From a virus, in the IMG/VR virus record IMGVR_UViG_3300050116_000286, positions 1 through 20,175 of that record: 20,175 bases of DNA. One strand, 5' to 3'. A program made the position numbers and the translations under genes. Positions 1-15,513 of the stretch are shown here, piece after piece. Position 1 is the first letter of the stretch; the number at the start of each line of letters is the position of its first letter. The notes under the pieces were generated by a model that did not search any database, was not told the DNA's origin, and worked only from the letters and a program-made list of their open reading frames with translations.

Positions 1-213
1 ATGCCCAAAATAAGGAGCGTGAAGACTTACGTCACTTATTGGTACTGCAAGAAGTGCCAGATCCTTCTAGAGCTCCATAGCTGGGATAAGTTCATGACAC
101 TGACAGAGACCGGGCCGCTCTGCTCCGAATGTGCAAGCCATCTCAAAGTTTTCGACGGCAATTTGAATGCCCCGTGTGCGCGCATCGTCATAGATTTCAG
201 CCGTAGTCGCTGA
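1..213 (+). CDS. small CxxC/CxxC zinc-ribbon-like protein, function unknown
   Basis: This 70-residue reading frame is the only plausible plus-strand gene. It has two Cys pairs, C16-KK-C19 and C41-SE-C44, 21 residues apart, the spacing of a small zinc ribbon. Codon choice looks ordinary. The ATG is the first base of the window, so neither a ribosome binding site nor a longer upstream frame can be judged. It ends 3 bp from the end of the long minus-strand gene, so the two converge tail to tail without a visible terminator. It could be an early or regulatory phage gene, a host gene at the element's edge, or a chance frame. I do not recognise the family. Confidence 0.45.
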   Translation: MPKIRSVKTYVTYWYCKKCQILLELHSWDKFMTLTETGPLCSECASHLKVFDGNLNAPCARIVIDFSRSR

Positions 214-216
214 AGA

Positions 217-3200
217 TCAGCAGGCCCCTGGCTGGCCATTTATGCGCTTGACCAGGCAGGGATCGACGATATGCAGATGATGTCCGGTGATGAGTCCGGG
301 CATCTGGAAAATAAACCAGACCGCCTTTTCCGCCGTGGTTGCGGAGTCTTCGACCACCTCGAGTCCGTTTGTTCCTGTGCAGATCTTCGGGTAGCCACCG
401 CTTGGGCAGCTCGTGACCCCGTTTGCGATGATCCATGCCGTGGTTCCGGTCGGATTCGGCTCGTTCCACATGGGGTCATTTAGATTGGCGAATGCATGGG
501 CCGTTCCGCCTTCAATGGGTAAGACAAAGAGTCCCGTCTGATACCCCGCCCCTCCGGTTACGTGTAGATATCCGCCGTAGGTTTGCAGTGCTGTGCAGAA
601 CGGTTTCTGCCATGCCGGCAAAGTGGAACAGTTGTAACTTGAGTCGATATAAAACAAGGAGCCGTTCAGTGGCGCGTTGGCTACCGTTCCGGGGCATGGA
701 TTGACATTTCCGTTGGCAGGATAAGCCGGGGCATTGGCGACGCCGCCCGTAGACTGCACGCAATCAACCCCCAGCAGAAGAGCGTGAGGGATGCTGTTGT
801 TTTCGATCTCCAGTTCCCGTGGCAGCGGTACCGATGCTCCGAATCCGGCCGAGTTAATCCCGTCTGCAATGCCACCGAGCGGGTCGGTAAAAGCGTAATC
901 GACAGCGTTGTAATAGAGGGTGTACTGACAGTTTGGATTGACTGCTGCCTGGGCGGGGGTTGTCGCTGTACAGGTAGTAGGCAGAGCCCGCACCGAACAG
1001 ACCGTAGTGGAGCCGAAAAAATAACTGACAAGAATCCGGCCGCCCGGGGTCGGGTCAATATCCGTGCTCTGGTCCCAGATGGCGATATTTTGGTCTCCTT
1101 CGCAGGAATCCCACTGCGCCCCGCTAGGCAGGTGGAAGTATTTCCCCGCGGCACAATATGTGGCGGACGCGCCCGAGCATGGGCCGGATCCCGACGTTAT
1201 AAGAAACACCGGGCAGCTTTGGTCGCAATAATAGAAGCCGTTCCCTTGACTAGACGTGGTGTTGGCGGGAGATGTACTGGCGGAGGTGCTGTATCCACCC
1301 GCCGCGTCGCTTGAGGCAAAGGTGTTGTTGATGATGGCAATGGACGGATCGGAAGAGGAACAGGCGACATTCCCCAAGCAGTGACTGCCCACATCGGATG
1401 GGAGCACGGTGCTGAAAACGGAGCCAGGAAGGAACACGTCTGCAACTGGCTGCTGGCTGGAGACGCTGTACGTCGAAGAGGCGCGGGTCGAGACCGTGAT
1501 GGTGGCCGTCCCAAGGGCCACCGATTTGAACAGGACCGAGTTCATCAGCCAGTCTCCACCGGCACTGAGCGTGCTGCTATCCGTCTGGCTCCCAGAGGAG
1601 AAGAGGTCCGTGTACTGCATGGAGGACCACCCTGTTCTTCCTATGGGGGCCGGGAAGACGCCGGTAGTCACCCGCCCGGGAGATACAACGGCAGAGAACA
1701 GGACATCGCTCGCAGCCGTTGCAGTAACCGAGTTTGTCGGGTTGAGATTGTTTCCGGTAGCCACTGCCTGCGCGTCGACGCCACCCGATAAGCCGAGCAT
1801 ATCGGCGCAGATGATATTAGGGCCAGTGGCTCCGCCGCTCCCAAAGGTCGCCGTTATGATGACCGCCGTCGAACCCACGACTCCCTGGCTGTCGTAAATA
1901 GCTTGACTGCTGCCGGTGCCCCTCGAGGGCGCAGAGCTAGAAGGCGATACGAGCGTATAGGTATTCCCTGCGCTGTCCGTGGGAACGGAATAACTTGAGC
2001 TCGTATCGGCCGAGGAGACCGCGACCACGATCGTATCGTTGTTCGCGACGGGCAGCGGCAGCGTGCAGGTAATGCTGGTCTGCCCGGTTTGTCCGGTGGC
2101 ATTGTTGGTACGGATATTGCCATTCGGAGTCCCCGAAACGGCGCCGGCGTTGACCGAGATCGTGGATGTACCGGGATTGAGGCCAGTGACGAACCCGCTG
2201 GCATTCACGCTCGCCACTGATGACGTCGTGCCCGCGATGAAGCTGATCGCGTAGCCCTGCCAGGTGGTGGTCGAGACGGAATCGGTCATCGTGCCGGCAT
2301 AGGTGCCAGCCGCAACTCCGGTCCGCGCTTCGATGCCCATGGGACCGCAGTTTGCGGCTAAGTCATTCGCCACCATGGAGTAGTTTGTGCCTGCGGTAAA
2401 TTCCGGTGAGATGCCGCAGTTCTGGGAACCGTAGTCCGTCGCGCCCACGAGGATCAGATCCGAGATCCCCGTTGTGGTGAAGCTTCCTGTGGTGATGCTT
2501 GTTGTTGCTGAGCTGGCATTGTTGCCGGCTTTCACTACGTCGAGGACCGCGCTGATGCTCTGTGATGCGCCCGAGTACTCCAGGCACTGCATCTCAAGCG
2601 TGGTAGCCACGGAGGAATTCTCCGTAAGGATGTCCGCGCCGCTCCCCTTGTTGACGGCAAAGAACCATTGATTGTTGATGGCCGCGCCATGATCCGCCGC
2701 AATGGCCGTGCTTACGAAAGCGTTGCCGAGGGAGTCAGTAACAGAAATGGTTGCGCTGGCGGAAGTATTCGCCCGGGTAAAGCAAGCCAAAAGGCTGCTG
2801 CTGGTCGTACTGATCGACGTAGCGGCTAGGGACGAAACGGAGGTATGGACCCCAGTGCCCGTCGAGTTGAGCAACGTCCAGGGCGAGGATGAAGACCCGC
2901 CGCTTGCATTCCAGCCGACGTTGTAGTTGGTGACGTTCAGGGTTGACGAGTCAGATCTCGTTTCCGTGGCCGTCAGCTGCACGGTATTCGTGGGCGTGAC
3001 GTCGCTGATGCTCGCGGTGGACGGAGATAGCGCGATGGAGGAAAGAGCCGGCGTAGCGACCGTGGCGCCGGCGCCACTCAGGGATACGGTGAGCGGGGCA
3101 GAGCTGATGGAGGTCACGACATTCAGCGTGGCCGTTTTGGTGCCTGCTGAATGCGGCCAGAAGCTTACATAAATGGTGCAGGTCGTCCCTGGCGCTATGA

Positions 3201-3654
3201 TCGCACCACAGTTATAGCCTTGTACTGGGAAGTTGGTGGGATCGGTGCTTCCCACGCTTACCAGACTGAAACTTTGTGGTGAGGCCACGGTGCAGATCCC
3301 AGTCGGGCCCAAGGTGCCCGCGCACAGGGTAACCTGCAGCTGTTGCGTATATCCGACGTTGAGAGTTCCGAAGCTCAGCGACGTGGGATTTAGGGTGGCA
3401 ACCGAACCCCCGCCGAGCGCCGCCCAGCTATTGGTGCTCTGGCAGTAGTAAGGCAGCGATACGCCGTTGTTAGAGAGCATCACGATGTCGGTGGGCTCGA
3501 CACCGTTGCCGGGATTGCAGAGGGCCGGCAGTGAGCTCACGGAGCGAATGTGCGTGGGCACTGTAGCCTGTGCCGCCGCTGTGCCAGTGCCCACGAGCAA
3601 AAGAACCGCGCAAAGCACAAAGCGAAGCGCTCTAAATTTTGATGTAGAAAACAT
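217..3654 (-). CDS. exported multidomain Ig-like/ASH-type surface or fibre protein (1145 aa)
   Basis: Residues 1-30 form a clear Sec signal peptide (basic start, hydrophobic core around FVLCAVLLLVGT, then TAAAQA). Residues 86-195 resemble an ASH/HYDIN-type beta domain (LNPTSLSFGTLNVG). An Ig-like BIG2 domain seems split: its start lies near 204-250 and its end (VASVNASGFVTGLNPGT) near 480-496. Two related beta-sandwich modules follow the pattern 'TDS.GN' then a closing strand, at about 285-473 and 513-711; the first sits inside the BIG2 domain. Residues 740-1145 form a Cys-rich C-terminal domain with ELEIENNSIPHALLLGVDC at 947-965, a motif I associate with secreted bacterial proteins of uncertain function. 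It is the last gene of the series. The 12 bases before its ATG read CCTCCCCTCCTA, the opposite of a Shine-Dalgarno. The role could be host-surface adhesion, a receptor-binding fibre or an exported cargo protein. The architecture is clear; the function is not. Confidence 0.7.
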   Translation of the reverse strand: MFSTSKFRALRFVLCAVLLLVGTGTAAAQATVPTHIRSVSSLPALCNPGNGVEPTDIVMLSNNGVSLPYYCQSTNSWAALGGGSVATLNPTSLSFGTLNVGYTQQLQVTLCAGTLGPTGICTVASPQSFSLVSVGSTDPTNFPVQGYNCGAIIAPGTTCTIYVSFWPHSAGTKTATLNVVTSISSAPLTVSLSGAGATVATPALSSIALSPSTASISDVTPTNTVQLTATETRSDSSTLNVTNYNVGWNASGGSSSSPWTLLNSTGTGVHTSVSSLAATSISTTSSSLLACFTRANTSASATISVTDSLGNAFVSTAIAADHGAAINNQWFFAVNKGSGADILTENSSVATTLEMQCLEYSGASQSISAVLDVVKAGNNASSATTSITTGSFTTTGISDLILVGATDYGSQNCGISPEFTAGTNYSMVANDLAANCGPMGIEARTGVAAGTYAGTMTDSVSTTTWQGYAISFIAGTTSSVASVNASGFVTGLNPGTSTISVNAGAVSGTPNGNIRTNNATGQTGQTSITCTLPLPVANNDTIVVAVSSADTSSSYSVPTDSAGNTYTLVSPSSSAPSRGTGSSQAIYDSQGVVGSTAVIITATFGSGGATGPNIICADMLGLSGGVDAQAVATGNNLNPTNSVTATAASDVLFSAVVSPGRVTTGVFPAPIGRTGWSSMQYTDLFSSGSQTDSSTLSAGGDWLMNSVLFKSVALGTATITVSTRASSTYSVSSQQPVADVFLPGSVFSTVLPSDVGSHCLGNVACSSSDPSIAIINNTFASSDAAGGYSTSASTSPANTTSSQGNGFYYCDQSCPVFLITSGSGPCSGASATYCAAGKYFHLPSGAQWDSCEGDQNIAIWDQSTDIDPTPGGRILVSYFFGSTTVCSVRALPTTCTATTPAQAAVNPNCQYTLYYNAVDYAFTDPLGGIADGINSAGFGASVPLPRELEIENNSIPHALLLGVDCVQSTGGVANAPAYPANGNVNPCPGTVANAPLNGSLFYIDSSYNCSTLPAWQKPFCTALQTYGGYLHVTGGAGYQTGLFVLPIEGGTAHAFANLNDPMWNEPNPTGTTAWIIANGVTSCPSGGYPKICTGTNGLEVVEDSATTAEKAVWFIFQMPGLITGHHLHIVDPCLVKRINGQPGAC

Positions 3655-3666
3655 TAGGAGGGGAGG

Positions 3667-4056
3667 CTAATTGTTCCCGATGACGTTCCAGTTGCCGCTG
3701 ATATTCGAAGCCTGAAGAACCACGTACTGCCATTGGTTGGAGAGGATGTAACTCGATGCCCCGTCAATTAACGCTCCGGCTGCATCCACATAGGTAATGG
3801 TTCCCGCGCCGGCATCAATCTTCTTGCAGCGGATCACCATGCCGGGATTGGCGACCGCTGAAGGCAGCGTGCGCACAATGCCGCTTCCGCCGCCAGAGGC
3901 TTCCTCGACTTCTGTTGTATTCGCGACGCTTCCGGTTGCAGACGCCGCGACGGAGACCAGAGTGATGGTGTGATTGGCATTCCACCTGGGACCGTCGACG
4001 AGGGCGCGATTCGATGCTGCCGCTTGCGCGGATTGAAAACCGTGAATGACCGGCAT
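3667..4056 (-). CDS. small fibre/decoration-type beta protein (129 aa)
   Basis: The C-terminal half follows a pattern common in phage fibre proteins: GMVIRCKKIDAGAGTITYVD (72-91), then a glycine-rich turn (LIDGASS) and strands ending in NWNVIGNN. Such modules are usually small beta-structures in fibre shafts or caps. The N-terminus (MPVIHGFQSAQAAASNRALV) has no signal peptide, unlike its two larger neighbours. The gene lies 34 bp after the tailspike-like gene and 12 bp before the 1145-residue gene, consistent with co-transcription. It may be a fibre accessory or a capping subunit. The assignment rests on pattern resemblance only. Confidence 0.6.
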   Translation of the reverse strand: MPVIHGFQSAQAAASNRALVDGPRWNANHTITLVSVAASATGSVANTTEVEEASGGGSGIVRTLPSAVANPGMVIRCKKIDAGAGTITYVDAAGALIDGASSYILSNQWQYVVLQASNISGNWNVIGNN

Positions 4057-4090
4057 GTGGGTTTATCTCTGAAAGAAAGAAAAGGCGGGA

Positions 4091-6679
4091 TTACTGATGG
4101 TAGAAGTGGCAGTACGATCCGCGAATGATATTCATGGTGCCAGACGCAGCACCGTTCTCGGCCTGGATCGCCAGGCTGCCCGCCGTCGTCCCATTCTCCA
4201 CAGTGCCGTAAATTGAAAATGGATAACTGGTGGTAGCTGCGTTCGGGGTGCCGCCTACAAATGCTGTCGCTGAAGCCGTAATCGCACTGGAGGTGCTGGT
4301 GTTAGTGGCGGTCGTATCAATCTTCGCCCACGCTGCGATGTTGGTTGGAGACGCCGGGGTGGTAACGGCCAGGCCCAGAGTCGCCGCCGTGGTAGAGCCC
4401 TGCCAGAACCCCTTACAGTCGAAGCTGATAATCTGGCTGGCATAGATCGGAATGGATTCCCACGTCTGCAGCGAGGCCGTGGTCTTGGCGAAGTTGCTGC
4501 CACTCTGGGGCTGGTGGTTCGCCTCCCCAACTCCGGAGTTGTCCAAGACTAAACAGTTGGCGCTGGTTGAGGCGCACCACATCCATTCTTTAGCTGGATT
4601 GTTGCTGGTTCCATATCCATAGAAAGGGATGCGGGCTTGCGTCAGTTGCCGATTCTGCGAGTTCGAGGTGTCATTGATAGTGTTGGCGTAGGCCCCGGTC
4701 TGATATATGCTGTGCAGATTTATATTCGTCATCGAACTGCCGGTGATGGTCACGCAGTTCGTGCCATTGCCAGTTGCCGACCCACACGTAAAAGCATAGA
4801 CGTTGACATTATCGGCATTCTGGATGAGCAAGCCCTGGGCAGTCGACTCGCCGTCCTCAATGCCTACGTCATAAAGATTTACTCCCAAATTCTGATAGTT
4901 GCCGCCATCGTCTGCAATTCGGATGTCCGGCTTGCCTGTGCCTTCGTGGGCGTACAGACCGCCGACCACATTGACTCCTCCCATCTGCCCGCCGGAGCCG
5001 CGAGTCGTGATTTCAAGCGGCGTGCTGAGCGTAGACGAGGCACAGTCGACTGTATCGTGCGGAATGTCGAGCGGCCCCACCGAGGTGCCATCGCCGTCCA
5101 CTTCGAAACCGACGCCGTTTGCCGGACAACCAAAATTGTTACCGCCGATAAACGTTCCCTGCTGCGCACCATAGAGATGCAGACCATACAGCATCGTCGG
5201 GCTGGAGCCGATGAGAGCATTGACGCCCTTTATCGTAACGGCCCCGTGATAGCCCGTGTAGCCAAAACCCGCGGCTCCACCAGAGGAGCTGGTCGCGGTG
5301 CCGGCCTCGGTATAGGTATACGAGGTACCCGAGCCGGTCATGCTCTTGATGCCGTTGGCGAAATCGGTTGCATCCGTTACGCCATAGACCAGAACCGGCT
5401 TGGCGCTGATTGTCGGACCGCTCACTGAGGTCGTAACTGTGACTGTGGTGGAAGTGCGTGAAATAGCGGAGATTTTCAGCCAGCAGGTATCACAGTCGGC
5501 GGCGATCAGTTCAGGGAAATTGGCCGAAGATGCGACGTTGAATCCGTTGCCGGAATTGACCCCCTCGTTGGTTGTGATCACTCCCGATTGCGGATGGATG
5601 GTAAGCGGAACGGTTTGTGCGTCCGTAATCGTCACATTCCAAGCCGTGCAGGAATTTAGGAGCAGGGTGTGGCCCTCTCCATTTGAACCGCCGGCACCGG
5701 TAAATCCGAGCACAACCCCTTGATCCCAAGTCTGAGCATTGGATCCGGTGTAGCAGGGGAATCCGCGCGCATCTAGTACGCCTCCAGTTGGCGCGGCGGC
5801 TACGCAAGCATTGATCTGGGCCGCGGGAGACGACCCGGAAAACTTGGTGCAGTCCAGAAAGACTGTGCTTGAACTGCCCGTTGTGGAGCCCGTCGCGATC
5901 AGCGGTTGACCGGCGGTGGAACTGCTGATTCCGCTGCCGCTGCCCGTGGTGGCATAGGTCTGTCCGACATAGTTCGTTCCATCGGAAAATACGGTCACGC
6001 TGGTAGCTGCCGAAGCTGATCCCGCCGCCAGCGTAAGGCTGCTGGATGAACCGTTAATCTGTTGCCCGCTCGGAGCGACCGTGACAACCCCGGACCCGTA
6101 GTTGATGATTTGGACGCACTGCCCCGAGGCGGGCTGCGAACTGGACGCTACGAGCGTAATGGTAAACGTGCCGGAGGGTACGACGATGTTGTCGCAGCCG
6201 ACGAAATCAGAGGCCAGGACCTGATATGTCGTGGTCTTCGACTTCACCTGAAACGGCTGATTGGCGACCAATTGCTTGCTGGAGTTTGTACCGATCGCGA
6301 AGGCAGAGGTTGGGATCGCCGCGCCTTCAATTTGAGCGACCGAGGGATTAGGAAACGTTCCAGATAGATCACCGCCTGCTGTACCCGCTGCGCCACAAGT
6401 GATAACCCCGGCGTTCGTGATCGTGCAGGATCCGGTCATGGTCTGCGGGGCATAGGCCGTCCCACCGCTGTTTCCGAGCAACAACTGGCCTGAGGACGGT
6501 GCCGCGGAGCTTCCCGTGCCTCCGTTGCTTTGGGGAAGTACGCCCTTGAACTGAGAGTTTGCCGACCCTGCGCGGCCGAGATCCAGCTGGGTCTGCGAGA
6601 AGAGCGAGACCGCTGCAACAAGAAAGAGGGCAAGCACGGCGCCACACCGCAGCCCACGGGAGATAGCTGATCGTTTCAT
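4091..6679 (-). CDS. putative tailspike/tail fibre with signal peptide and beta-helix-like region (862 aa)
   Basis: The start is a strong Sec-type signal (MKRSAISRGLRCGAVLALFL, continuing hydrophobic to about residue 28). Next come classic fibre motifs: KGVLPQSNGGTG (45-56) and GGDLSGTFPNPSVAQI (102-117). A fibre beta-domain spans about 145-240 (SGTFTITLV, then FSDGTNYVGQ). From 272 the pattern resembles the start of pectate-lyase-like tailspikes (DCTKFSGSSPAAQINACV, then GGVLDARGF). Residues about 480-690 are rich in short G/N/D-turn repeats typical of a right-handed beta-helix. The C-terminal 170 residues look like another beta domain. In tailspikes such helices bind or cleave surface polysaccharide; I cannot place catalytic residues here. 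The odd features are the signal peptide and many Cys residues, which would suit disulfides outside the cytoplasm. Confidence 0.7.
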   Translation of the reverse strand: MKRSAISRGLRCGAVLALFLVAAVSLFSQTQLDLGRAGSANSQFKGVLPQSNGGTGSSAAPSSGQLLLGNSGGTAYAPQTMTGSCTITNAGVITCGAAGTAGGDLSGTFPNPSVAQIEGAAIPTSAFAIGTNSSKQLVANQPFQVKSKTTTYQVLASDFVGCDNIVVPSGTFTITLVASSSQPASGQCVQIINYGSGVVTVAPSGQQINGSSSSLTLAAGSASAATSVTVFSDGTNYVGQTYATTGSGSGISSSTAGQPLIATGSTTGSSSTVFLDCTKFSGSSPAAQINACVAAAPTGGVLDARGFPCYTGSNAQTWDQGVVLGFTGAGGSNGEGHTLLLNSCTAWNVTITDAQTVPLTIHPQSGVITTNEGVNSGNGFNVASSANFPELIAADCDTCWLKISAISRTSTTVTVTTSVSGPTISAKPVLVYGVTDATDFANGIKSMTGSGTSYTYTEAGTATSSSGGAAGFGYTGYHGAVTIKGVNALIGSSPTMLYGLHLYGAQQGTFIGGNNFGCPANGVGFEVDGDGTSVGPLDIPHDTVDCASSTLSTPLEITTRGSGGQMGGVNVVGGLYAHEGTGKPDIRIADDGGNYQNLGVNLYDVGIEDGESTAQGLLIQNADNVNVYAFTCGSATGNGTNCVTITGSSMTNINLHSIYQTGAYANTINDTSNSQNRQLTQARIPFYGYGTSNNPAKEWMWCASTSANCLVLDNSGVGEANHQPQSGSNFAKTTASLQTWESIPIYASQIISFDCKGFWQGSTTAATLGLAVTTPASPTNIAAWAKIDTTATNTSTSSAITASATAFVGGTPNAATTSYPFSIYGTVENGTTAGSLAIQAENGAASGTMNIIRGSYCHFYHQ

Positions 6680-6719
6680 TTGTTTGCGTACCTTGATTTT
6701 CAGGAAGAGAAGGGAAGAG

Positions 6720-7361
6720 CTAGAACCAGAGGCAATTCAGTTTGGTGCCGGTCGCCGGCGCGGTCAGATAGGTGATCGTCGCCCCGGATATCGTGTAGTC
6801 ATCGCCTGCGCCTTGCTGTTGCTGCAGGCCATTTTCGAAGCAATCTACGTCGCTTGCTTGGGTAGGAGTGGGCGAGAGCGTGAAGGTGGTATTGGAACCG
6901 TTGATTGAGCCTGACGGCGCACCCTGATTGAGGTTCACCCCTGCATCGGCTGCGCAGCTTGGGACCCCGCTCGTGCTGATCTTGAGGATATGTCCGCTGC
7001 CCGTGCAATCGATCGATTCCACGCCACCCAGGGTGGAGGCGCTCGGATTCGGCAGCTGTGACGCGGTGACCGCGGTACTCGTGGTCATTACAGTTCCGCT
7101 CGAGGGGAACACGGCAGTGCCGTTGACCGCAGTTCCGCCGTTGGCGGTCGGCAGGACGCCCTGCACCTGGGTTGCGAGGTTTAGCTGCGTCACCGCCGCT
7201 ATGCTCACGATCGCCCAGCCGAGCACAACAGCAATGCCCAGATTAGTCGGGACTTTGGCCAAGAGATTCTTAGCAAAACCGCGTACAAAGATGCTCGCGA
7301 GCGCAAGAAACAACACGGCCGCGAGACTGCAACCGAGCAGTAAGGCGATAAGTATGGTCAT
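6720..7361 (-). CDS. membrane-anchored fibre-like protein (213 aa)
   Basis: Two N-terminal hydrophobic helices (about 3-28 and 41-58) with a short basic link (VRGFAKNLLAK) would hold the protein in the membrane. They are followed at once by fibre motifs: TQLNLATQVQGVLPTANGGT (58-77) and TASQLPNPSASTLGGVESID (99-118). The last 60 residues (TTFTLSPTPTQASDV, FENGLQ, DDYTISGATITYLTAP) form a compact beta domain also seen at the C-terminus of the head-tail joining protein just upstream. The N-terminal fibre motif resembles that of the next gene, so the two may be paralogous at their fronts. It may be an inner-membrane docking or fibre subunit. The membrane helices are visible; the role is inferred. 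Confidence 0.6.
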   Translation of the reverse strand: MTILIALLLGCSLAAVLFLALASIFVRGFAKNLLAKVPTNLGIAVVLGWAIVSIAAVTQLNLATQVQGVLPTANGGTAVNGTAVFPSSGTVMTTSTAVTASQLPNPSASTLGGVESIDCTGSGHILKISTSGVPSCAADAGVNLNQGAPSGSINGSNTTFTLSPTPTQASDVDCFENGLQQQQGAGDDYTISGATITYLTAPATGTKLNCLWF

Positions 7362-7389
7362 GGCTGATTTATTTCTTTCGATGAAAGGA

Positions 7390-8070
7390 CTAGAAGAAAG
7401 CGATGAGTTCCTGCGTAGCTAAAGGCGGATCGGCAAGCGTGACCACGGTGACTCCTCCGCCGATTTCGATGGTGTAATCGTTCTCGTCACCTTCGTTCAA
7501 TAACACTCCCAAGAAAAGCTGAAATGCGACGTCGGAAGCTGCCTGACCGTTAAATGTGAAGGTGACTCGCGAACCATCAGGTGCTTGGGTCGGGTAATGC
7601 CGCGTAAGCGCAGCGCCGGCCACGCTAGGCGAAGCAGGATTGATGAAGATTCCGCCCTGGGAAATCGACAATGGAGCGGTGAAGTTCTCAAGTTCCAGAT
7701 TCTCTATCTCTGAGCACCGCAACCGCAGCTCGATCTGGCGCAGATCAACATCCTCGATTCCCTTTATCTCGAGCGTCCGAGCATTGCTCTCATCCTGATA
7801 AATCACGCGCATCTGCTGCGTGATGCCCCGCTGCCATGGCGTGGCTACGAGATAGATGAGCTCTTGCGCAATCTGCTGAGCTTTGTCCAGTTCTTGGGTC
7901 TGCAGCACTCGGATCGCCGCCCAAGCCACCGCATGAGGACTATAGGGCGGATCGGATCCGTCCTGATTACGCCCGCTCGGAGCCATGAACACAATTTGCC
8001 GGTGCATGGCTCCGATTGGGGTATACGCGCCGACGGGCGGCGGAACAGCGCTGAGGCGGCGAAGGGGCAT
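7390..8070 (-). CDS. phage head-tail joining (head closure) protein with C-terminal fibre-type domain
   Basis: Residues about 22-122 fit the phage head-tail joining family that seals the portal channel: HRQIVFM, then AVAWAAIRVLQ, QRGITQQMRVIYQ and LEIKGIEDVDLRQIELRLRC. Family members usually stop near residue 110. Here about 100 more residues follow: a short linker, then FTFNGQAASDVAFQLFL, ENDYTIEIGG and TLADPPLATQELIAFF, matching the C-terminal domain of the downstream membrane-anchored protein. Start choice is uncertain. ATG at 8070 lacks a good ribosome site and follows the CTAG repeats; ATG at 8007 (M22) sits nearer the conserved domain but has GGAG only 2 nt away. The domain call is fairly firm, and the fusion is the notable feature. 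Confidence 0.7.
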   Translation of the reverse strand: MPLRRLSAVPPPVGAYTPIGAMHRQIVFMAPSGRNQDGSDPPYSPHAVAWAAIRVLQTQELDKAQQIAQELIYLVATPWQRGITQQMRVIYQDESNARTLEIKGIEDVDLRQIELRLRCSEIENLELENFTAPLSISQGGIFINPASPSVAGAALTRHYPTQAPDGSRVTFTFNGQAASDVAFQLFLGVLLNEGDENDYTIEIGGGVTVVTLADPPLATQELIAFF

Positions 8071-8073
8071 TGG

Positions 8074-8101
8074 CTAGTTTGCTAGTTTTCTAGGAAACTA
8101 G
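8074..8101. repeat. four CTAG tetramers at exact 8-bp period, inner near-palindrome
   Basis: CTAG occurs at 8074, 8082, 8090 and 8098, each 8 bp apart. The last three form a near-perfect 20-bp palindrome (8082-8101) with one mismatched symmetric pair. The last CTAG contains the stop codon of the upstream gene, so the repeat fills the gap to the head-tail joining gene. It could be an operator, a weak terminator hairpin or a recombination scar. CTAG is generally rare in bacterial DNA. Confidence 0.6.
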
Positions 8102-8520
8102 TTCCACTGAACGACCGCAATCTTCAGCAGCGCCGAAGAGGTGGTCAGATAAACCGTCTGCCCGCCAGGCTGAATCCAGCCGCTCAGCGACTTGAACTGC
8201 ACGGCCGCGAACCCATTCCCAGCGACCGTATAACTGGTGAGCGAAGCATCCGTCCGGCCGAGCGAATCCGCCACACTGGAGACCGTGAAGGTGTGCGTGC
8301 TCGCATCGCTGTTCTGCACGATCAGGATTTCTCGTCCGGTGGCATAGAAAGAGTTGCCGTTCGTGGCATCCATGGCCACAAAGGCAACGGTTAGATCGCC
8401 GGCCTGCACGGCGTAATTGTTCTGCTTGAGGATGACGGTTGTGAGTGGAGTCTGCACCGCGAAGACGGGCATCGCGGCCATGGTCAGGATGATGAAAAGG
8501 GAAGCAAGTTTGCGAAGCAT
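8098..8520 (-). CDS. decoration-type beta protein carrying a signal peptide (140 aa)
   Basis: The start at 8520 is supported by AGGAG placed 8 nt upstream and by an immediate signal peptide (MLRKLASLFIILTMAAMPVF, then A). The frame stays open upstream to an ATG at 8652, but that longer start has a poor ribosome site. The mature part matches, as I recall, a small beta-protein family of phage structural modules: a Gly/Asn turn (DATNGNSFYATGREILIVQN), then DSLGRTDASLTSYTVAGNGF and GWIQPGGQTVYLTTSSALLK. Relatives I remember begin directly at the beta domain without a leader. It lies between a coiled-coil gene and the head-tail joining gene. It may be a head or neck decoration; why it would be exported is unclear. 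Confidence 0.6.
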   Translation of the reverse strand: MLRKLASLFIILTMAAMPVFAVQTPLTTVILKQNNYAVQAGDLTVAFVAMDATNGNSFYATGREILIVQNSDASTHTFTVSSVADSLGRTDASLTSYTVAGNGFAAVQFKSLSGWIQPGGQTVYLTTSSALLKIAVVQWN

Positions 8521-8663
8521 GGTGTATCTCCTATGTTGTTTTGAGAGTCTGGAAAATTCGTTGCGCGAGCGCTCGAAGCGAACAGATTCAGCCCTGCGCT
8601 CCATCTCTTCGCCTACTTCGGTCCGGGCCACGATGACGGGCGCCTGATCCATGGATGCCGTTC
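8521..8663 (-). other. 143-bp inter-gene stretch, open in frame with the downstream gene
   Basis: No independent gene is seen. On the minus strand the frame of the 140-residue protein stays open through almost all of this stretch (from ATG 8652), encoding an Arg/Glu-rich segment that would precede the signal peptide. A GC-rich palindrome, CGAGCGCTCG, lies near its middle. The better ribosome site at 8520 argues that most of this is leader sequence. Confidence 0.4.
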
Positions 8664-8897
8664 TTATACTTTCCTTGCTGAAGGAGTCATCTTGCGCAGG
8701 GATATCCGCTGCAGTTCTTCGAGTTGCTGGTGCAAAAGCTGGGCACGTTCCGCTTCCAGCCGTTCAAGATTCGGATCACCGCTCTCGCGCGCATTCTTAA
8801 TCTTGGCCTCAGAGGCTGCGATCTGGCTGGGCGTGACTTTGGTTTCTGGCGGAAACTTTGCCGCATCGGGCACGAGATCAACGTCTTTGGAACTCAT
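8664..8897 (-). CDS. small coiled-coil protein, unknown function (77 aa)
   Basis: The protein is highly charged. About residues 26-66 have a heptad-like pattern rich in Glu, Leu, Gln and Arg (LERLEAERAQLLHQQLEELQ), typical of a coiled coil; the N-terminus is acidic and Pro-rich. No signal peptide or metal motif is present. The ribosome site is weak. The gene sits 86 bp after the previous gene, behind a strong GC hairpin. Its place between the connector and the head-tail joining gene suggests a minor structural or chaperone role. I do not recognise the family. Confidence 0.5.
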   Translation of the reverse strand: MSSKDVDLVPDAAKFPPETKVTPSQIAASEAKIKNARESGDPNLERLEAERAQLLHQQLEELQRISLRKMTPSARKV

Positions 8898-8930
8898 AAA
8901 TGATATGGCAGACGTCGCCCCCAGCTCCCA

Positions 8931-8956
8931 GTCCGCGGGCAGGTTCTCCCGCGGAC
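8931..8956. terminator. GC-rich hairpin without U-tract (terminator-like or attenuator)
   Basis: GTCCGCGGG (8931-8939) and CCCGCGGAC (8948-8956) form a perfect 9-bp stem with an 8-nt loop, in the gap between two minus-strand genes. On the minus strand no T-run follows, so it is not a classic intrinsic terminator. It may pause polymerase or protect an mRNA 3' end. Confidence 0.45.
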
Positions 8957-8983
8957 CGAGAGTCGAGAGGCGACGGTCTATGG

Positions 8984-9508
8984 CTAGACTTCGGTCAGAG
9001 CGCCAGCCACGGAACCGACGAGGATCCAGTTGCCGTTATAGGCCAGCAAGGTGATCGATCCGCCGGCGTGCGCGGCAAAGGTATAGGTGTCCTTCGCGGT
9101 CGCCGTGCCGTCGAGAATGGTGCTGGCTGGAGTAGTGACGGTATGGGCGAATGCCGTGGTGCTAACGATCGTGAGTAATTGGCCGTCATTGCCTCCAGCT
9201 GCCGGCGCTCCCGCCACAGGGGCAGCTAGTGTAAGCGCTGCCGCGCTGCCTTTGGTGATGATGACGGTTCCGTGCGTAGAAGCGATGGCGCCGTTTGCGC
9301 TTTTCACTTCAGTGCCGCACAGGTCCTGGTCGACGTAGGCGCCGAAGGTACCGAGGCTAGCATCCAGCGGCGAAGCGGTTGTGCCCGAGAACTGCAGGGC
9401 CATGCCGGCGACGGCCAGCCCGACGCCTGAGACCAGGGCAAAGGTGAGCATCGGGTGCGTTGTGGTCCCGACAAGCGACATGAGTGCAACGATCAGCATT
9501 GGGTGCAT
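8984..9508 (-). CDS. membrane-leader fibre/decoration beta protein (174 aa)
   Basis: AAGGAG 9 nt upstream fixes the ATG at 9508. The first 38 residues are hydrophobic and appear internally duplicated: HPMLIVALMSLVG (2-14) and HPMLTFALVSGVG (18-30). Residues about 70-166 fit a small beta domain common in phage structural proteins: TVIITKGSAAALTLAAP, then GQLLTIVSTTAFAHTVTTPA, KDTYTFAAHAGGSITLLAYN and GNWILVGS. Such domains occur in fibres and head decorations. The gene follows the connector gene by 39 bp. The hydrophobic leader would place the beta domain outside or on the inner membrane. The domain resemblance is good; the function is inferred. Confidence 0.6.
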   Translation of the reverse strand: MHPMLIVALMSLVGTTTHPMLTFALVSGVGLAVAGMALQFSGTTASPLDASLGTFGAYVDQDLCGTEVKSANGAIASTHGTVIITKGSAAALTLAAPVAGAPAAGGNDGQLLTIVSTTAFAHTVTTPASTILDGTATAKDTYTFAAHAGGSITLLAYNGNWILVGSVAGALTEV

Positions 9509-9547
9509 TGGTGAATTTCTCCTTTTGATTTGAACTTAAGTTGGCTA

Positions 9548-10729
9548 CTACGCTTGCGGAATTACCGTGAATCCCAGGTCGCGGACGCTTTCGATGATCG
9601 TTTGCAGGCTGAGCGGAATGCTTGCCGCGCTGCCTGCAGCTACGGGCTCGCGATTGTAGTAATAGTGTGAAACCAGCAACATGATGGCGACCTGTAGATC
9701 CTCTGGGCAGTTGATCGTCCGCGAGTAGCTGCCTGGCTGGTCGGGAGGATTGGGCAGCACTCCCTGATAAAAACCGAGGCAACGCCAAGCATTTGCGACC
9801 CCATTGTCCGTGGTCATGGCGCCTAATGTTGTCGCCCAAGTTGGAGGCGCAGTGCCGGTGAGCAGAGAGGGAACGATAAGGGTTTGCAGGTTCCCGTTGC
9901 CATCAAAAACTGTGTCGTATTCCGCGTATTCCGTTTGCGGATCGTATTCGCCCAGGACCGGGCCAAGGCAAGTCCATGAAGCTGACCCGTCCGGCGTGAC
10001 GCCTCCAGGGCTCTGGGAAAAGACTGGCGCGGAACCGCTGCCGGTCGTGCCAGAAGGCCCCACGGTCTGCATCTGCACATTCCCATTCGGATCAGTGAAG
10101 TATGCGTATTGCGAAACGCTGTTCGACGGCTCCCAACCGGCCTTAGATTCCTGCGTTGCGGGCGTCGTGGTTCCATCTGGTGCATAGCCAGCCGTGAAAA
10201 AGATCTGGACGGAATTCGCCCCGATAATCGAGACCGGCCAGCGTTGGCCAGGCAGAGGCAACACACGTCCCGTAGCAAAATCAGGAATGAAATCTCGGAA
10301 CGGAACCAGCGCATGCTTGAGGCCATCGGTGCCGATGTAAACAATCGATGTAATGGAAGTGATGGGGTTGCGCAGGGCCACCACTTGGAACGGATCGAGC
10401 ATCTGATTCTGCAGACCGCCGATCGCGGGATAGGGATAGGACGCTATCGGCCCATAGCCGAAGTAAAAAGGAAACGCCGCCCCGAAGAGCGGGGCGTATG
10501 GAGATTGAAAATATGGAAAGAAAGGGAAGCCGTCTTGATATTGTACGAACGACCTTTGCGCCAGCGTAAGCCCCGTCCAGCGCTCGATTTGCCGCCTCGC
10601 CGCCTTCATTAGTTTCGGCACAATCGTCGCAATATCGGGATTCGACGAGGGCAGTTTGAGAAACTGCACGATGTCGCTGGTCAGCACCGGCTCTGCCACC
10701 GGCAGCGTAAGTTCAAGAATGGAACTCAT
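9548..10729 (-). CDS. gp6-like head-tail connector with large fibre-type insertion (393 aa)
   Basis: Head-tail connectors of this family form a ring under the portal and are usually 100-200 residues. Here the family's N-terminal part is seen at 1-65 (VLTSDIVQFLKL, then KAARRQIERWTGLTLAQRSF), its middle at 111-181 (ALRNPITSITSIVYIGTDG, then SVQIFFTAGYA), and its C-terminal helix at 340-393 (CPEDLQVAIMLLVSHYYYNR). Between 183 and 335, at the usual AGY to helix junction, lie two fibre-type repeats, each with 'NGN.Q' early and 'TDG/TDN' then 'W.CLG' late. A second insertion (66-105) is 14/40 Phe or Tyr. The ATG at 10729 follows the intrinsic terminator and lacks a clear ribosome site. The ring role is well supported; the insertions suggest a decorated collar. 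Confidence 0.75.
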   Translation of the reverse strand: MSSILELTLPVAEPVLTSDIVQFLKLPSSNPDIATIVPKLMKAARRQIERWTGLTLAQRSFVQYQDGFPFFPYFQSPYAPLFGAAFPFYFGYGPIASYPYPAIGGLQNQMLDPFQVVALRNPITSITSIVYIGTDGLKHALVPFRDFIPDFATGRVLPLPGQRWPVSIIGANSVQIFFTAGYAPDGTTTPATQESKAGWEPSNSVSQYAYFTDPNGNVQMQTVGPSGTTGSGSAPVFSQSPGGVTPDGSASWTCLGPVLGEYDPQTEYAEYDTVFDGNGNLQTLIVPSLLTGTAPPTWATTLGAMTTDNGVANAWRCLGFYQGVLPNPPDQPGSYSRTINCPEDLQVAIMLLVSHYYYNREPVAAGSAASIPLSLQTIIESVRDLGFTVIPQA

Positions 10730-10740
10730 GAGAGTTTGTC

Positions 10741-10775
10741 AAAAATGACGGGAGCCGAGATTGAACTCGGCTCCC
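10741..10775 (-). terminator. rho-independent terminator after the major capsid gene
   Basis: GGGAGCCGAG (10750-10759) and CTCGGCTCCC (10766-10775) form a perfect 10-bp stem with a 6-nt loop. Read on the minus strand, the stem is followed within 3 nt by ATTTTT, giving a U-tract. It lies about 10 bp after the capsid stop codon and before the connector ATG. It should lower transcription past the capsid gene, giving much capsid and less connector. Confidence 0.8.
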
Positions 10776-10785
10776 ATCAACAGGA

Positions 10786-12126
10786 TTAGCTATGTTGCAC
10801 GAGCAGGGAGAACGCCTTGTACTGAAGGCGTTGACCATCGGTACGGAGGTAGGCTTGGAAACCGATCTGGTGATTCGGCATGTAGAGCTCGTTGTACCGG
10901 ACCAGAGTGACTCCCAGCACATCGCGGATGATGTACTTATCGAACTTTCCGAAAAGCACACTGTTCTTGTTGGCCGCCGGCACTCCGGCGACTGCCGCAT
11001 CCATGGCGCCGGACCAATCGTAGGGATAGCCGAAGATTTTGTCTTCTTGATCCTTCGTGATTGTTTCGACGAACAGCGGCCTGCCGTATTTGTCCTTGAC
11101 CTTTTTCAGGTAGTCGAGGATCGACCAGTGCGCTAGGAACTTCGCGCCATCGCGATAGGTCGGATCGACCAGTGCGATGATGCCGGCCAAATCGTCGGTA
11201 CCGATCGAATTGGCTCCGGTGGCGCTCGTTCCGTCGTTGGCACTTGAGCCCGCGGCGGTTACGGTCAGTGGCGTGCCATCAGCCAGGATGGAAGTGACAA
11301 GCCCGGTCGGCGCCGTTGAGCCGGCTCCCGTGGTGTAAGCAGCGTCTGTCAAACGGCCCAGGCGGATGCCGAGCAGTTCGGCCAGCAAGCTCTCGATGGG
11401 GAACGCGCTGTCCTGCATCAATTGCACGCTGACCAGTACCTGGTCGGACGATCCGAGATAAGCGCTGTAGACGACTTCCGAGAAGGTGGGGTTAATCTGG
11501 CTGACCGCTCCACTTTCTGAAAGAAAACGCCCCTGGTTGGCCGTATCGTCGACCGCTGGCCAGTGCAGGGGATTGCCGGTGGAGGTTGGCACGATGCGAC
11601 AATTGCGCCGCATTCCGCCATACGCTTTCATCACGATTTCGAGTTCGCGCTGAAAGCCGACAGGGATCAGGGTTTCGCCGGCGCTTGACGATCCGGTGTT
11701 CAGGGCCGAATAGGTGCGCAGCTCGCGGCACATCGTCTGAAATTTCGCGGACTGCTCACCGGACCGCACCCAGTGGAGAAAGCCGGCACGGTATTCCGAG
11801 TCCGCAGCGATTTCGTGGTATCGCTTCTCGACGTCGCTGACGGCCACTTCATTGCGTGTGGCGAGGGCCTCGGGAGACTCGACTTGCGGTTGCGGCGGAG
11901 CGGCCACGCGAAGTTGCTCTTCCTGCAGCTTTTCCGTCGCAGCAATAGCATCTGCCTGGCGCTTCATGTTTTCCTGCTGAGCGTTCAGTTCATGCCAGCG
12001 CTTGCTGGCTTCGGCGGCGGCCGCTGGGTCTTTCGAGTTCCAGGAGCCGTCGTTCTTGGTGAGATCGTGCATTTCCTGGATCAGCTTACTGCGCGCAGCC
12101 AGGATCTCTTTCACTGTGGAGTTCAT
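10786..12126 (-). CDS. HK97-fold major capsid protein with N-terminal delta domain
   Basis: The 446 residues show the family layout. Residues about 1-110 are a charged, helical delta (scaffold) region (KSKLIQEMHDL-type heptads, NAQQENMKRQADAIAAT). The shell domain starts near ALNTGSSSAGETLIPVGFQR (141-160). Further family landmarks are MRRNCRIVPTSTGNPLHWPA (172-191), FSEVVYSAYLGSSDQVLVSV (215-234), DAAYTTGAGSTAPTGLV (261-277) and a C-terminal KYIIRDVLGVTLVRYNELY. The delta region is probably removed by the protease encoded just upstream, near residue 105-145, before expansion. AAAGGA 8 nt upstream of the ATG is a good ribosome site. A 151-bp leader precedes it and a strong terminator follows, as expected for the most abundant virion protein. 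No separate scaffold gene is needed. Confidence 0.93.
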   Translation of the reverse strand: MNSTVKEILAARSKLIQEMHDLTKNDGSWNSKDPAAAAEASKRWHELNAQQENMKRQADAIAATEKLQEEQLRVAAPPQPQVESPEALATRNEVAVSDVEKRYHEIAADSEYRAGFLHWVRSGEQSAKFQTMCRELRTYSALNTGSSSAGETLIPVGFQRELEIVMKAYGGMRRNCRIVPTSTGNPLHWPAVDDTANQGRFLSESGAVSQINPTFSEVVYSAYLGSSDQVLVSVQLMQDSAFPIESLLAELLGIRLGRLTDAAYTTGAGSTAPTGLVTSILADGTPLTVTAAGSSANDGTSATGANSIGTDDLAGIIALVDPTYRDGAKFLAHWSILDYLKKVKDKYGRPLFVETITKDQEDKIFGYPYDWSGAMDAAVAGVPAANKNSVLFGKFDKYIIRDVLGVTLVRYNELYMPNHQIGFQAYLRTDGQRLQYKAFSLLVQHS

Positions 12127-12277
12127 CAGATTGTCCTTTTTTTGAGTAGATTTGCGGACCGCTTGCGTCAGCAGCTTGCAGGGCGCCTGTCCGCTTTCGT
12201 GGCTATCGCGCTTAAGCTCCGGGCTTCATCCCCGTGGGGAACGCGCGGCCATGACAGAAAATTTTCGGAGGTAACGA
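12127..12277 (-). other. 151-bp leader between protease and capsid genes, no gene seen
   Basis: No open frame longer than a few codons lies here on the minus strand. The stretch holds short dyads (TCCCCGTGGGGA near 12231; GCGGAC and GTCCGC arms about 30 nt apart near 12159-12197) but no clear promoter hexamers. The last 20 bases carry the capsid gene's AAAGGA ribosome site. It may be a structured 5' leader or hold an internal promoter I cannot recognise. Confidence 0.4.
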
Positions 12278-13393
12278 TCAGGAGTTGACGTTCTCGATCT
12301 GCTCGAGTTCAATCTCCAGGTTCCGGGTTATGGCTTGGGCTAGCTCTAGATCGATGCCAGCGGAATCCTTTTCGCTCTCGCCGGACACGTGGATGCCGTG
12401 AGCTTTGGCAGCGGCTTTGATCTTCGCCAGCACTTTTGGTTTATCGGCCGCCGGGATGCCCTGCGTCTGTTCGAAGCGGGCCAAGGCATTGCGGATATGC
12501 GATGCGGTTTTCTCCTCGGTGGAGAACTTGATGGGGAGTTTCCAGGTCTCCGTCTTATCTGGATCCCCAACGTAAGCGAATGCGCCAGGGCCCAGGTCCT
12601 CACCATCTACCCGCTTGGTTTTCTTCTGATTGTCGCGCGCTGCGCGCTCCGCCATGCCAGGATCACAATTTTCGGGATCGGAGCAGCTTTGCATGTGCAT
12701 GCCGCACTCTTCGCACTCTGCGGAATAGCAGGCGCGACAGGAGCAGTCACATTCGAGGTCGCCTTCATCGTCATCGCCGGCGGGCACATCATCGTCCCGC
12801 TTCAGGGCGGCCTCGAGTAATTGCTGCAATTTCTCGCTATCGCCGAACACTCCTCGCAATTCCAGCGCGCGGGCTTTCACGTCGGTGCCTTCATAAGCCG
12901 GGTAGGTGACGGGGCCCACATCGAACAAATCGACGTCTTGGATGGTGCGTCGGATAAAGGTTTTTCCGTCCTTTTCTTCTTCCGAGCGCTCTTGCTTGGT
13001 AACCATGAATGCGAAGCTGCAGCCACTAAGGTCCTTGCGTTGGATCGAGGTCCGCACATCTTTTCCAAGTTGCGTATCGGGGGTGGTGCAGTCGAATCGC
13101 AGTCCGCGGCTGTCCTCTTCGAGCGTGAGAGTCCCGGAGGCCGTCCTGCCGAGAATGTTGTTCGAATCGTGATTGAACAGGCAGCGGACGTCCTGGTTCT
13201 CGCCGAGCGCACGCTTAAAGCTTCCCGATTGGATGGTCTCGACGACTCGCAAGCTAGGCGAGTCCCAGAGCACATACTCTTCCCCAAATACGGCCGCGTG
13301 ACCATCGATGTGGCCATTATTGAGCGCCCGAATCTCAGCCTGCTGGCTGGTGCGCCGTTCGATCCCGGACGTAAGGTTTTTGGATACTGGCAT
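12278..13393 (-). CDS. HK97-type prohead protease with Cys-rich and C-terminal accessory domains
   Basis: The protease cuts capsid delta domains and itself inside the prohead. Landmarks are NGHIDGHAAVFGE (27-39), the His motif CLFNHDSNNILGRT (71-84, H75), the Ser motif DLSGCSFAF (121-129, S126 likely nucleophile) and FDVGPVTYPAYEGT (157-170). The family usually ends near residue 180-220. Here residues 215-243 hold eight Cys and one His in a likely metal-binding cluster (CDCSC, then CEECGMHMQSC). Residues about 268-335 (GPGAFAYVGDP, HIRNALARFEQTQGIPAADK, VLAKIKAAAKAHGI) match a small C-terminal domain seen on other phage proteases. A Glu-rich helix closes the protein. GGAGG 9 nt upstream fixes the ATG at 13393. 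It lies between a small gene and the capsid gene, the classic order. Confidence 0.88.
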   Translation of the reverse strand: MPVSKNLTSGIERRTSQQAEIRALNNGHIDGHAAVFGEEYVLWDSPSLRVVETIQSGSFKRALGENQDVRCLFNHDSNNILGRTASGTLTLEEDSRGLRFDCTTPDTQLGKDVRTSIQRKDLSGCSFAFMVTKQERSEEEKDGKTFIRRTIQDVDLFDVGPVTYPAYEGTDVKARALELRGVFGDSEKLQQLLEAALKRDDDVPAGDDDEGDLECDCSCRACYSAECEECGMHMQSCSDPENCDPGMAERAARDNQKKTKRVDGEDLGPGAFAYVGDPDKTETWKLPIKFSTEEKTASHIRNALARFEQTQGIPAADKPKVLAKIKAAAKAHGIHVSGESEKDSAGIDLELAQAITRNLEIELEQIENVNS

Positions 13394-13424
13394 GATGTTT
13401 CCCTCCGAACGAATGTGGACTCTT

Positions 13425-13628
13425 CTACCGACCCCTAGGGCCTCTCCGCGCAGCAGACTCGGGCGAAGCGACGGCGTGCTCTGCCTGCGAAGTAATAATT
13501 TCTCGCTCGACGGATTCCGCAGGCTCTAACACTTTGGCGGCCTTTTTGTGGTCTAGCAGATAGGTAGCGACGTATTCCGGGACCACGCGAATCTCTCCCG
13601 TTTCCTTCATCCTGACTTTAATGGACAT
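13425..13628 (-). CDS. small conserved head-module protein, unknown function (67 aa)
   Basis: The start ATG lies inside the portal gene's last codons (11-bp overlap), with a near-perfect AGGAGG about 7 nt upstream. The first 35 residues have a pattern I recall in small phage proteins placed between portal and protease: MSIKVRMKETGEIRVVPEYV, then ATYLLDHKKAAKVL. The C-terminus is Ala/Arg-rich and probably disordered. Its tight coupling to the portal gene suggests a minor head or assembly factor. No function is known to me. Confidence 0.65.
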   Translation of the reverse strand: MSIKVRMKETGEIRVVPEYVATYLLDHKKAAKVLEPAESVEREIITSQAEHAVASPESAARRGPRGR

Positions 13629-15366: not shown

Positions 15367-15513
15367 TTATCTTGTCTTTTTACCGAGGGACGCCGCCATG
15401 AGAAGTAATATCCCGGCGACGAGTGGCCCGAGTGGCCGATAAATCCAACTGCAACCGGTGACGATCAGGATGAATCCCGCCAAGGGATAGACGATCACAG
15501 TGAAGCGGTTCAC
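15367..15513 (-). CDS. 48-aa two-helix membrane protein between terminase and portal
   Basis: This gene is very short. It starts with GTG at 15513, overlapping the terminase stop as GTGA, and its TAA abuts the portal ATG. The protein starts MNRFTVIVYPLAGFILIVTG. A first hydrophobic segment spans about 5-24 and a second about 28-43, linked by a short loop with Trp, Arg and Pro; the end is basic (GKKTR). The 4-bp overlap on one side and 0-bp spacing on the other strongly suggest a real coupled gene. Small membrane proteins sit at the same place in some other phages, but none has a settled function that I know. A role in prohead assembly at the membrane or a holin-like role is possible. Confidence 0.65.
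   Translation of the reverse strand: MNRFTVIVYPLAGFILIVTGCSWIYRPLGPLVAGILLLMAASLGKKTR

Follow-up and report, generated by a model that had tools for sequence, protein, structure and literature searches.

Export leaders on fibre- and decoration-type proteins of a soil siphovirus fragment suggest parts matured outside the cytoplasm

Background

Tailed phages are taught as assembling entirely in the cytoplasm, and a signal peptide on a phage gene product is usually taken to mean a host or moron gene. Here we describe a viral DNA stretch of 20,175 nucleotides (IMG/VR record IMGVR_UViG_3300050116_000286, positions 1 to 20,175; hereafter the window) in which five genes for fibre-, spike- or decoration-type proteins begin with a hydrophobic leader. 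The analysis suggests that, in this phage and its relatives, several head-, neck-, tail- and fibre-type proteins of kinds that usually arise and assemble within the host cell have acquired export signals, and that parts of the virus, or a layer around virus or host, are matured outside the cytoplasm.

The closest described systems are of different kinds. Tunturi_1 and Tunturi_2 are podoviruses isolated on Tunturiibacter (Acidobacteriota) that yield infectious particles (PMC11924767). The term 'signal peptide' is absent from the main text of that paper; in our calls, the products of the fibre, spike and structural cluster (gp12-14, 16 and 17; positions 10371-23028 of our contig L242 for Tunturi_1) carry signal peptides and are mostly rich in cysteine (Cys), and the head and tail-tube genes are leaderless. 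The virion of Agrobacterium phage Milano contains many disulfides, which stabilise neck, collar, capsid and tail (PMC10491603). Coat proteins of filamentous phages such as M13 g3p are described as virion proteins made as Sec-dependent preproteins (PMC8310372). For structural proteins of tailed phages, no report of signal peptides was found in the literature searched, which is weak evidence of absence.

Results and discussion

Five leaders of two kinds

Leaders were called with a home-made rule for n-, h- and c-regions and with starts guided by Shine-Dalgarno (SD) sequences; the rule was calibrated on core proteins and is not equivalent to a SignalP-class predictor. Relatives are cited by our G and L labels. 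The five open reading frames (ORFs) in question were confirmed, all on the minus strand and sited around and after the head closure gene Hc1:

8984-9508, minus strand: D, 174 residues; hydrophobic leader at about 1-45 (nucleotides 9374-9508), coil helix, T4 gp9/gp10-type spike/decoration beta domain at about 58-172
8098-8520, minus strand: S, 140 residues; Sec signal peptide at residues 1-21 (nucleotides 8458-8520); small tailed-phage structural protein between Ad1 and Hc1
6720-7361, minus strand: F213, 213 residues; transmembrane helix 1, K/R-rich loop, transmembrane helix 2 or signal sequence (nucleotides about 7176-7361), motif TQxxLxTQVxxxLPxANGG, C-terminal tail-fibre domain
4091-6679, minus strand: F862, 862 residues; fibre-like, signal peptide, 19 Cys, motifs LPQSNGGTG and GGDLSGTFPNPSV
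217-3654, minus strand: F1145, 1145 residues; signal peptide, choice-of-anchor-D/ASH-like domain (89-196), 31 Cys

As the original prediction had claimed, all five (starts 9508, 8520, 7361, 6679 and 3654) begin with a hydrophobic leader, and its remark on many Cys in the two largest proteins and the 213-residue protein also holds (31, 19 and 5). The features of a Sec peptide cut by signal peptidase I, namely a positive n-region, a hydrophobic core and small residues at -3 and -1, were found at 8520, 6679 and 3654, and likewise in the S family and in the K fibres described below. The N-termini at 8520 (MLRKLASLFIILTMAAMPVFA, followed by VQTPL) and 3654 (MFSTSKFRALRFVLCAVLLLVGTGTAAAQ) are classical; at 6679 (MKRSAISRGLRCGAVLALFLVAAVSLFSQ) charge and core are classical and the cleavage site is less sharp. 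The N-terminus at 9508 (MHPMLIVALMSLVGTTTHPMLTFALVSGVGLAVAGMALQFSGTT) lacks these features, being hydrophobic, without K or R and with an unclear AXA, and is anchor-like rather than classical. At 7361 a K/R-rich loop lies between two hydrophobic segments, of which the second alone fits the Sec pattern, and the fibre motif AVTQLNLATQVQGVLPTANGG follows. An SD sequence stands immediately 5' of the leader ATG at 9508 (AAAAGGAGAAATTCACC) and at 8520 (AGGAGATACACC); at 7361, 6679 and 3654 the SD is weak or missing. Hc1 (8070-7390) and a gene for a 129-residue protein (4056-3667), which lie within the run, are leaderless. The five proteins appear to be late structural or fibre-type products of an HK97-type siphovirus lineage in which export signals were grafted onto ordinary phage structural domains.

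The S family gains and loses its leader at the domain start

S keeps its position between Ad1 and Hc1 in those close relatives whose sequences are long enough. Of 66 distinct members from a wider scan, 44 have a signal peptide that ends where the domain begins, and the other 22 start at the domain; the rule-based caller scored 51 of 75 S proteins as positive. Leaderless members have SD and ATG where leadered members have the AFA cleavage site, with a good SD in most, and nearly all leadered members have a strong SD directly before the leader ATG. True starts downstream of the hydrophobic segment, which the original prediction had named as a finding that would count against it, were seen only in such other, mostly distant, leaderless homologues. 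Since these start with SD and ATG at the domain itself, the leader is an addition and not a misread start.

A pair of Cys (in ACD... and (T)CS...) accompanies the leader: it is present in 38 of 43 leadered and 0 of 22 leaderless proteins (Fisher 7e-13, without correction for kinship). The pooled ratio of non-synonymous to synonymous polymorphism (pN/pS) is 0.47 in the leader and 0.17 in the mature part, and by this measure the leader codons appear to be under purifying selection. On the best S tree, six changes are required for the leader and six for the Cys pair; strong branches are few, as are the resolved pairs for a phylogenetic sign test of the leader-Cys link. Strict signal-peptide ORFs near S were found at 20.8% on contigs with leadered S, 1.4% on distant contigs with leaderless S and 15.9% on near-clade contigs with leaderless S. 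As the last group is still rich in such ORFs, the trait is a property of the phage lineage that is realised gene by gene.

The predicted fold of S (mean predicted local distance difference test score 94) matches leaderless phage proteins of 112-119 residues in BFVD (e.g. A0A6J5PFJ9; template modelling score 0.75-0.78), and the 'tail protein' profile phrog_16194 matches weakly (window E 0.13; leaderless relative L117 E 1.6e-5; relatives down to 1.3e-5). S thus has the size and fold of these small tailed-phage structural proteins but, unlike them, begins with a Sec signal peptide; most relatives have the added Cys pair as well. Naming S by its fold in PDB was abandoned, as the best hits (Z 6.6) were unrelated beta proteins and pointed to no solved family. 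Isolate phages gave no match to S or D.

D and the fibres

A strong SD (AAAAGGAG) lies 5' of the D leader ATG. The predicted single-chain structure shows the beta-sandwich of T4 gp9/gp10-type spike domains at Z 7.8-10.9 (tailspike Solidus gp83 10.9, CBA120 TSP4 9.7, Pa223 capsid spike 8.2, T4 gp9 7.8). Residues 58-172 thus share the fold of these trimeric spikes; D has a hydrophobic leader with its own ribosome-binding site, and solved T4 gp9/gp10-type spike proteins are not known to carry a membrane-type leader. The leader is present in the window and in most close relatives and is missing from close relative G011 and from distant L042, L043 and L044; the wider D family is mostly leaderless. 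The join is again exact: L200 reads ...AAALFGTT followed by ITAQTPGPMV, and L101 reads MTQ followed by the same ITAQTPGPMV. Some D relatives are fused behind longer proteins that, from a likeness judged by eye, are probably head-decoration proteins. The D gene also shifts within the operon: it can precede the capsid gene or follow either Ad1 or the major tail protein gene (window 8984-9508; G011 23649-24044; G001 6046-6531).

F213 matches the tail fiber profile phrog_18673 (E 5e-4), and a homologue at 46% identity has the same two-helix N-terminus. In proteins of this type (window, G011, L095, L114) the last helix ends in A-V-T-Q and the fibre motif follows; in L114 a single classical signal peptide precedes the same domain. 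Fibres encoded after Hc1 in the relatives (K) have a signal peptide in 21 of 21 cases. F1145 has Pfam matches that fall short of the curated cut-off, to Cep192_D4 (E 1.8e-5) and to ASH (E 5e-4), and its choice-of-anchor-D module has matches on plasmids; the large fibres as a whole gave only weak matches to isolate phages and plasmids. Exported fibres contain 2.2 Cys per 100 residues, versus 0.8 in core proteins.

Second major tail proteins and core proteins

Two paralogous major tail protein (MTP) genes stand in tandem in each of G001, G002, G009, G011 and G017. The first product, MTP1, is leaderless; 10 distinct paralogues of the second, MTP2, have a two-helix leader that ends in FGTT directly before the domain, with a good SD in all. 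K and R are confined to the loop between the helices in most (L114 and L135 have longer leaders with further K), and acidic residues are found in none of the 10. This loop charge predicts that the C-terminal domain lies outside.

Leaders could also act as inner-membrane tethers, so that decoration, tail and fibre parts assemble at the membrane; the domains would then stay in or return to the cytoplasm, and the leader would be lost or kept. The two-helix leaders of D and MTP2 are alike (L200 D ends in AAALFGTT, G009 MTP2 in SAALFGTT), and leaders on a tail-tube-type protein and once on a capsid (L116) are hard to square with full export, which leaves membrane-tethered assembly with some probability. 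However, the positive loop in MTP2 and F213 predicts an outside domain, the S and K peptides are of the classical, cleavable type, the Cys pair of S is linked to the leader, and L114 replaces the two helices of F213 with a classical peptide. We regard tethering as rather improbable.

In the same phages, 5 of 327 core proteins (TerL, portal, protease, capsid, connectors, terminator, tape measure) were called as leadered. Leaders are thus concentrated in D, S, the fibre/K proteins, F213 and some MTP2, and nearly all core assembly proteins are without. Among relatives they keep their character and meet the domain precisely where it begins, and in D, S and MTP2 a good ribosome-binding site lies in front of the leader. 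The weak SD before 7361, 6679 and 3654, and a record that opens with the ATG of one ORF, closes with the reverse complement of another's and was probably trimmed at gene boundaries, would fit leaders that are misread starts, chance hydrophobic stretches or relics of a decaying prophage. Against this, D, MTP2 and nearly all S have a strong SD immediately 5' of the leader ATG, the leaders are conserved, leader pN/pS lies below 1, and the core genes of the same phages are leaderless. We consider such an origin very improbable; the start-site artefact in particular was rejected from the placement of the SD, the conservation of the leaders and the selection on their codons.

Genome context

Profile searches identified an integrase-like gene and a head module on the minus strand, and the remaining genes of the leadered run were assigned as follows:

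15510-17522, minus strand: terminase large subunit (TerL_nuclease E 3e-34)
13618-15366, minus strand: portal protein (Phage_portal E 1.3e-85)
12278-13393, minus strand: prohead protease S78 (Peptidase_S78 E 2.3e-43)
10786-12126, minus strand: HK97-type major capsid protein (Phage_capsid E 4e-39)
9548-10729, minus strand: head-tail adaptor Ad1, leaderless (phrog_40 E 6.9e-10)
8664-8897, minus strand: 77-residue protein, leaderless, position kept in relatives
7390-8070, minus strand: head closure Hc1, leaderless, with an extra C-terminal fibre-like domain (Phage_HCP E 2.8e-9; phrog_25 E 2.3e-8)
3667-4056, minus strand: 129-residue fibre-like protein, leaderless

The set of TerL, portal, S78 protease, HK97-fold capsid, Ad1 and Hc1 matches an HK97-type siphovirus. 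Tail genes are absent from the window; tail terminator, MTP and tape measure would fall beyond its end. Relatives with portals 50-65% identical have similar leadered genes and then tail terminator and MTP genes (G001; G002, G009, G011 and G017 have the tape measure as well), and the longer ones run on into tape measure, NlpC and tip genes. As tail genes follow the same leadered genes there, the window appears to be a fragment of a long-tailed, HK97-type siphovirus from soil. In place of the single-stranded DNA (ssDNA) inovirus genome and extrusion machinery of filamentous phages, it has terminase, portal and HK97 capsid.

Several features of the neighbouring genes may be recorded here. The C-terminal domain of Hc1 (TFTFNGQ...DYTIEIGGG) is fibre-type, and the relatives' shorter Hc1 lack it. 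The C-terminal part of the protease (12278-13393) is Cys-rich (11 Cys, up to 20 in relatives) and possibly binds metal. A strong terminator-like hairpin (14 pairs and a T tract) lies on the minus strand at 10746-10779, between the capsid gene and Ad1.

A contig scan for the host gave matches only from proteobacterial relatives and one Opitutus relative. A search of 388 genomes from the phylum of Opitutus did not detect S, a result of little weight as the search had no positive control. From the Tunturi parallel and the style of the proteins, an acidobacterial host would be our guess.

Where the exported products act

Export may be real and the products may act on the producing cell, as periplasmic or surface fibre-like decoys, as receptor blockers against superinfection or as surface proteins of lysogenic conversion. 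Signal peptides and Cys richness suit any secreted role, the choice-of-anchor-D module of F1145 is host-like, and a leaderless S beside a leadered one in L119, like leaderless MTP1 beside MTP2, hints at a distinct task of the exported copy. However, in relatives the genes are part of the late operon, where Ad1, Hc1 and the tail terminator flank them, and in the window the gaps from Hc1 downwards measure 12-41 nucleotides. No promoter-like site was found on the minus strand in 1-13500 (the host's promoter types were not identified), and base composition does not shift over the questioned genes (GC 0.54-0.60 throughout the window). Most phages have only the leadered copy of S, and the leadered cluster of Tunturi_1 and Tunturi_2, which form infectious particles, holds annotated spike and fibre genes. 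An action on the producing cell thus seems unlikely. The further suggestion of the original prediction, that phage-derived genes serve the host as surface proteins, is not supported, on the same ground: the genes sit in intact late operons of many phages, without promoter-like sites or GC shift. Domestication by the host was rejected, as no sign of it was seen outside phage operons.

The explanation that we favour is export, disulfide folding in the periplasm and docking on the virion at or after lysis, which as a whole we hold to be about evenly balanced between true and false. Sec would move the domains through the inner membrane; the classical peptides (S, K, F862, F1145) would be cleaved, and D and MTP2 would stay anchored. 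Disulfides would form beyond the cytoplasm. Translocation and, for most S relatives, an extracytoplasmic disulfide are well supported by the sequence data. The exported proteins might then stay in the periplasm during the cytoplasmic assembly of heads and tails, until holin and endolysin merge the compartments and the proteins dock as decoration, neck or side-fibre parts; the virion would be finished from outside with disulfide-hardened parts. For periplasmic waiting and docking at lysis, the same data give only a weak indication.

The original prediction is supported in part. Its central idea of fibre- and decoration-type proteins that are exported or membrane-docked is supported by leaders that recur and are gained or lost at the exact domain start, by the Cys pair and by purifying selection; homologous modules adjoining HK97-type heads bear the same leaders. 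Export is well supported; between proteins that are exported or membrane-docked and virions that pick up parts outside the cytoplasm, the data do not choose.

Several observations weigh against completion of the virion from outside. The S protein of the window lacks the Cys pair, as do a few other leadered members, and the S tree resolves leader changes poorly (the best tree needs at least six, and strong branches force one). The tandem S genes of L119 (7511-8363), of which only the first has a signal peptide, could mean that the leadered copy serves a different job. If the tail tube is built in the cytoplasm, an exported MTP2 fits poorly, except where MTP1 alone forms the tube. The major capsid ORF of L116 (4611-6314) has a hydrophobic N-terminal extension of about 75 residues, with an SD only ahead of the extension. 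Finally, no such leaders were found in Tunturi_3 and Tunturi_4.

If export is routine, these soil phages assemble their virions across a membrane, with the help of the host's Sec and disulfide machinery. In a harsh habitat this would provide hardened particles held by disulfide bonds, and it would place a new constraint on how signal-peptide genes of phages are annotated.

Comparison with known systems

The domains described here are of known kinds; their export is unreported in the literature searched, and the assembly route behind it has a fair chance of being new. Filamentous phages differ in being ssDNA phages that assemble at the membrane without lysis, and they are unrelated to the window phage. 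Milano differs in its contractile tail, and signal peptides are not mentioned in the main text (PMC10491603). Tunturi_1 and Tunturi_2 resemble the window in their adjacent Cys-rich fibre and spike genes with classical signal peptides (gp12-gp17) and in their leaderless head and tail genes, but they are podoviruses whose exported proteins have no detectable sequence similarity to those of the window. For this reason they look like an independent instance of an export-signal cluster. A tailed-phage lineage that completes its virions externally, by Sec export, periplasmic disulfides and addition at lysis, with a separate origin in Tunturi_1 and Tunturi_2, is a tentative proposal that we rate somewhat below an even chance. 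With Tunturi_1 and its cultivated host, the question of export is directly testable.

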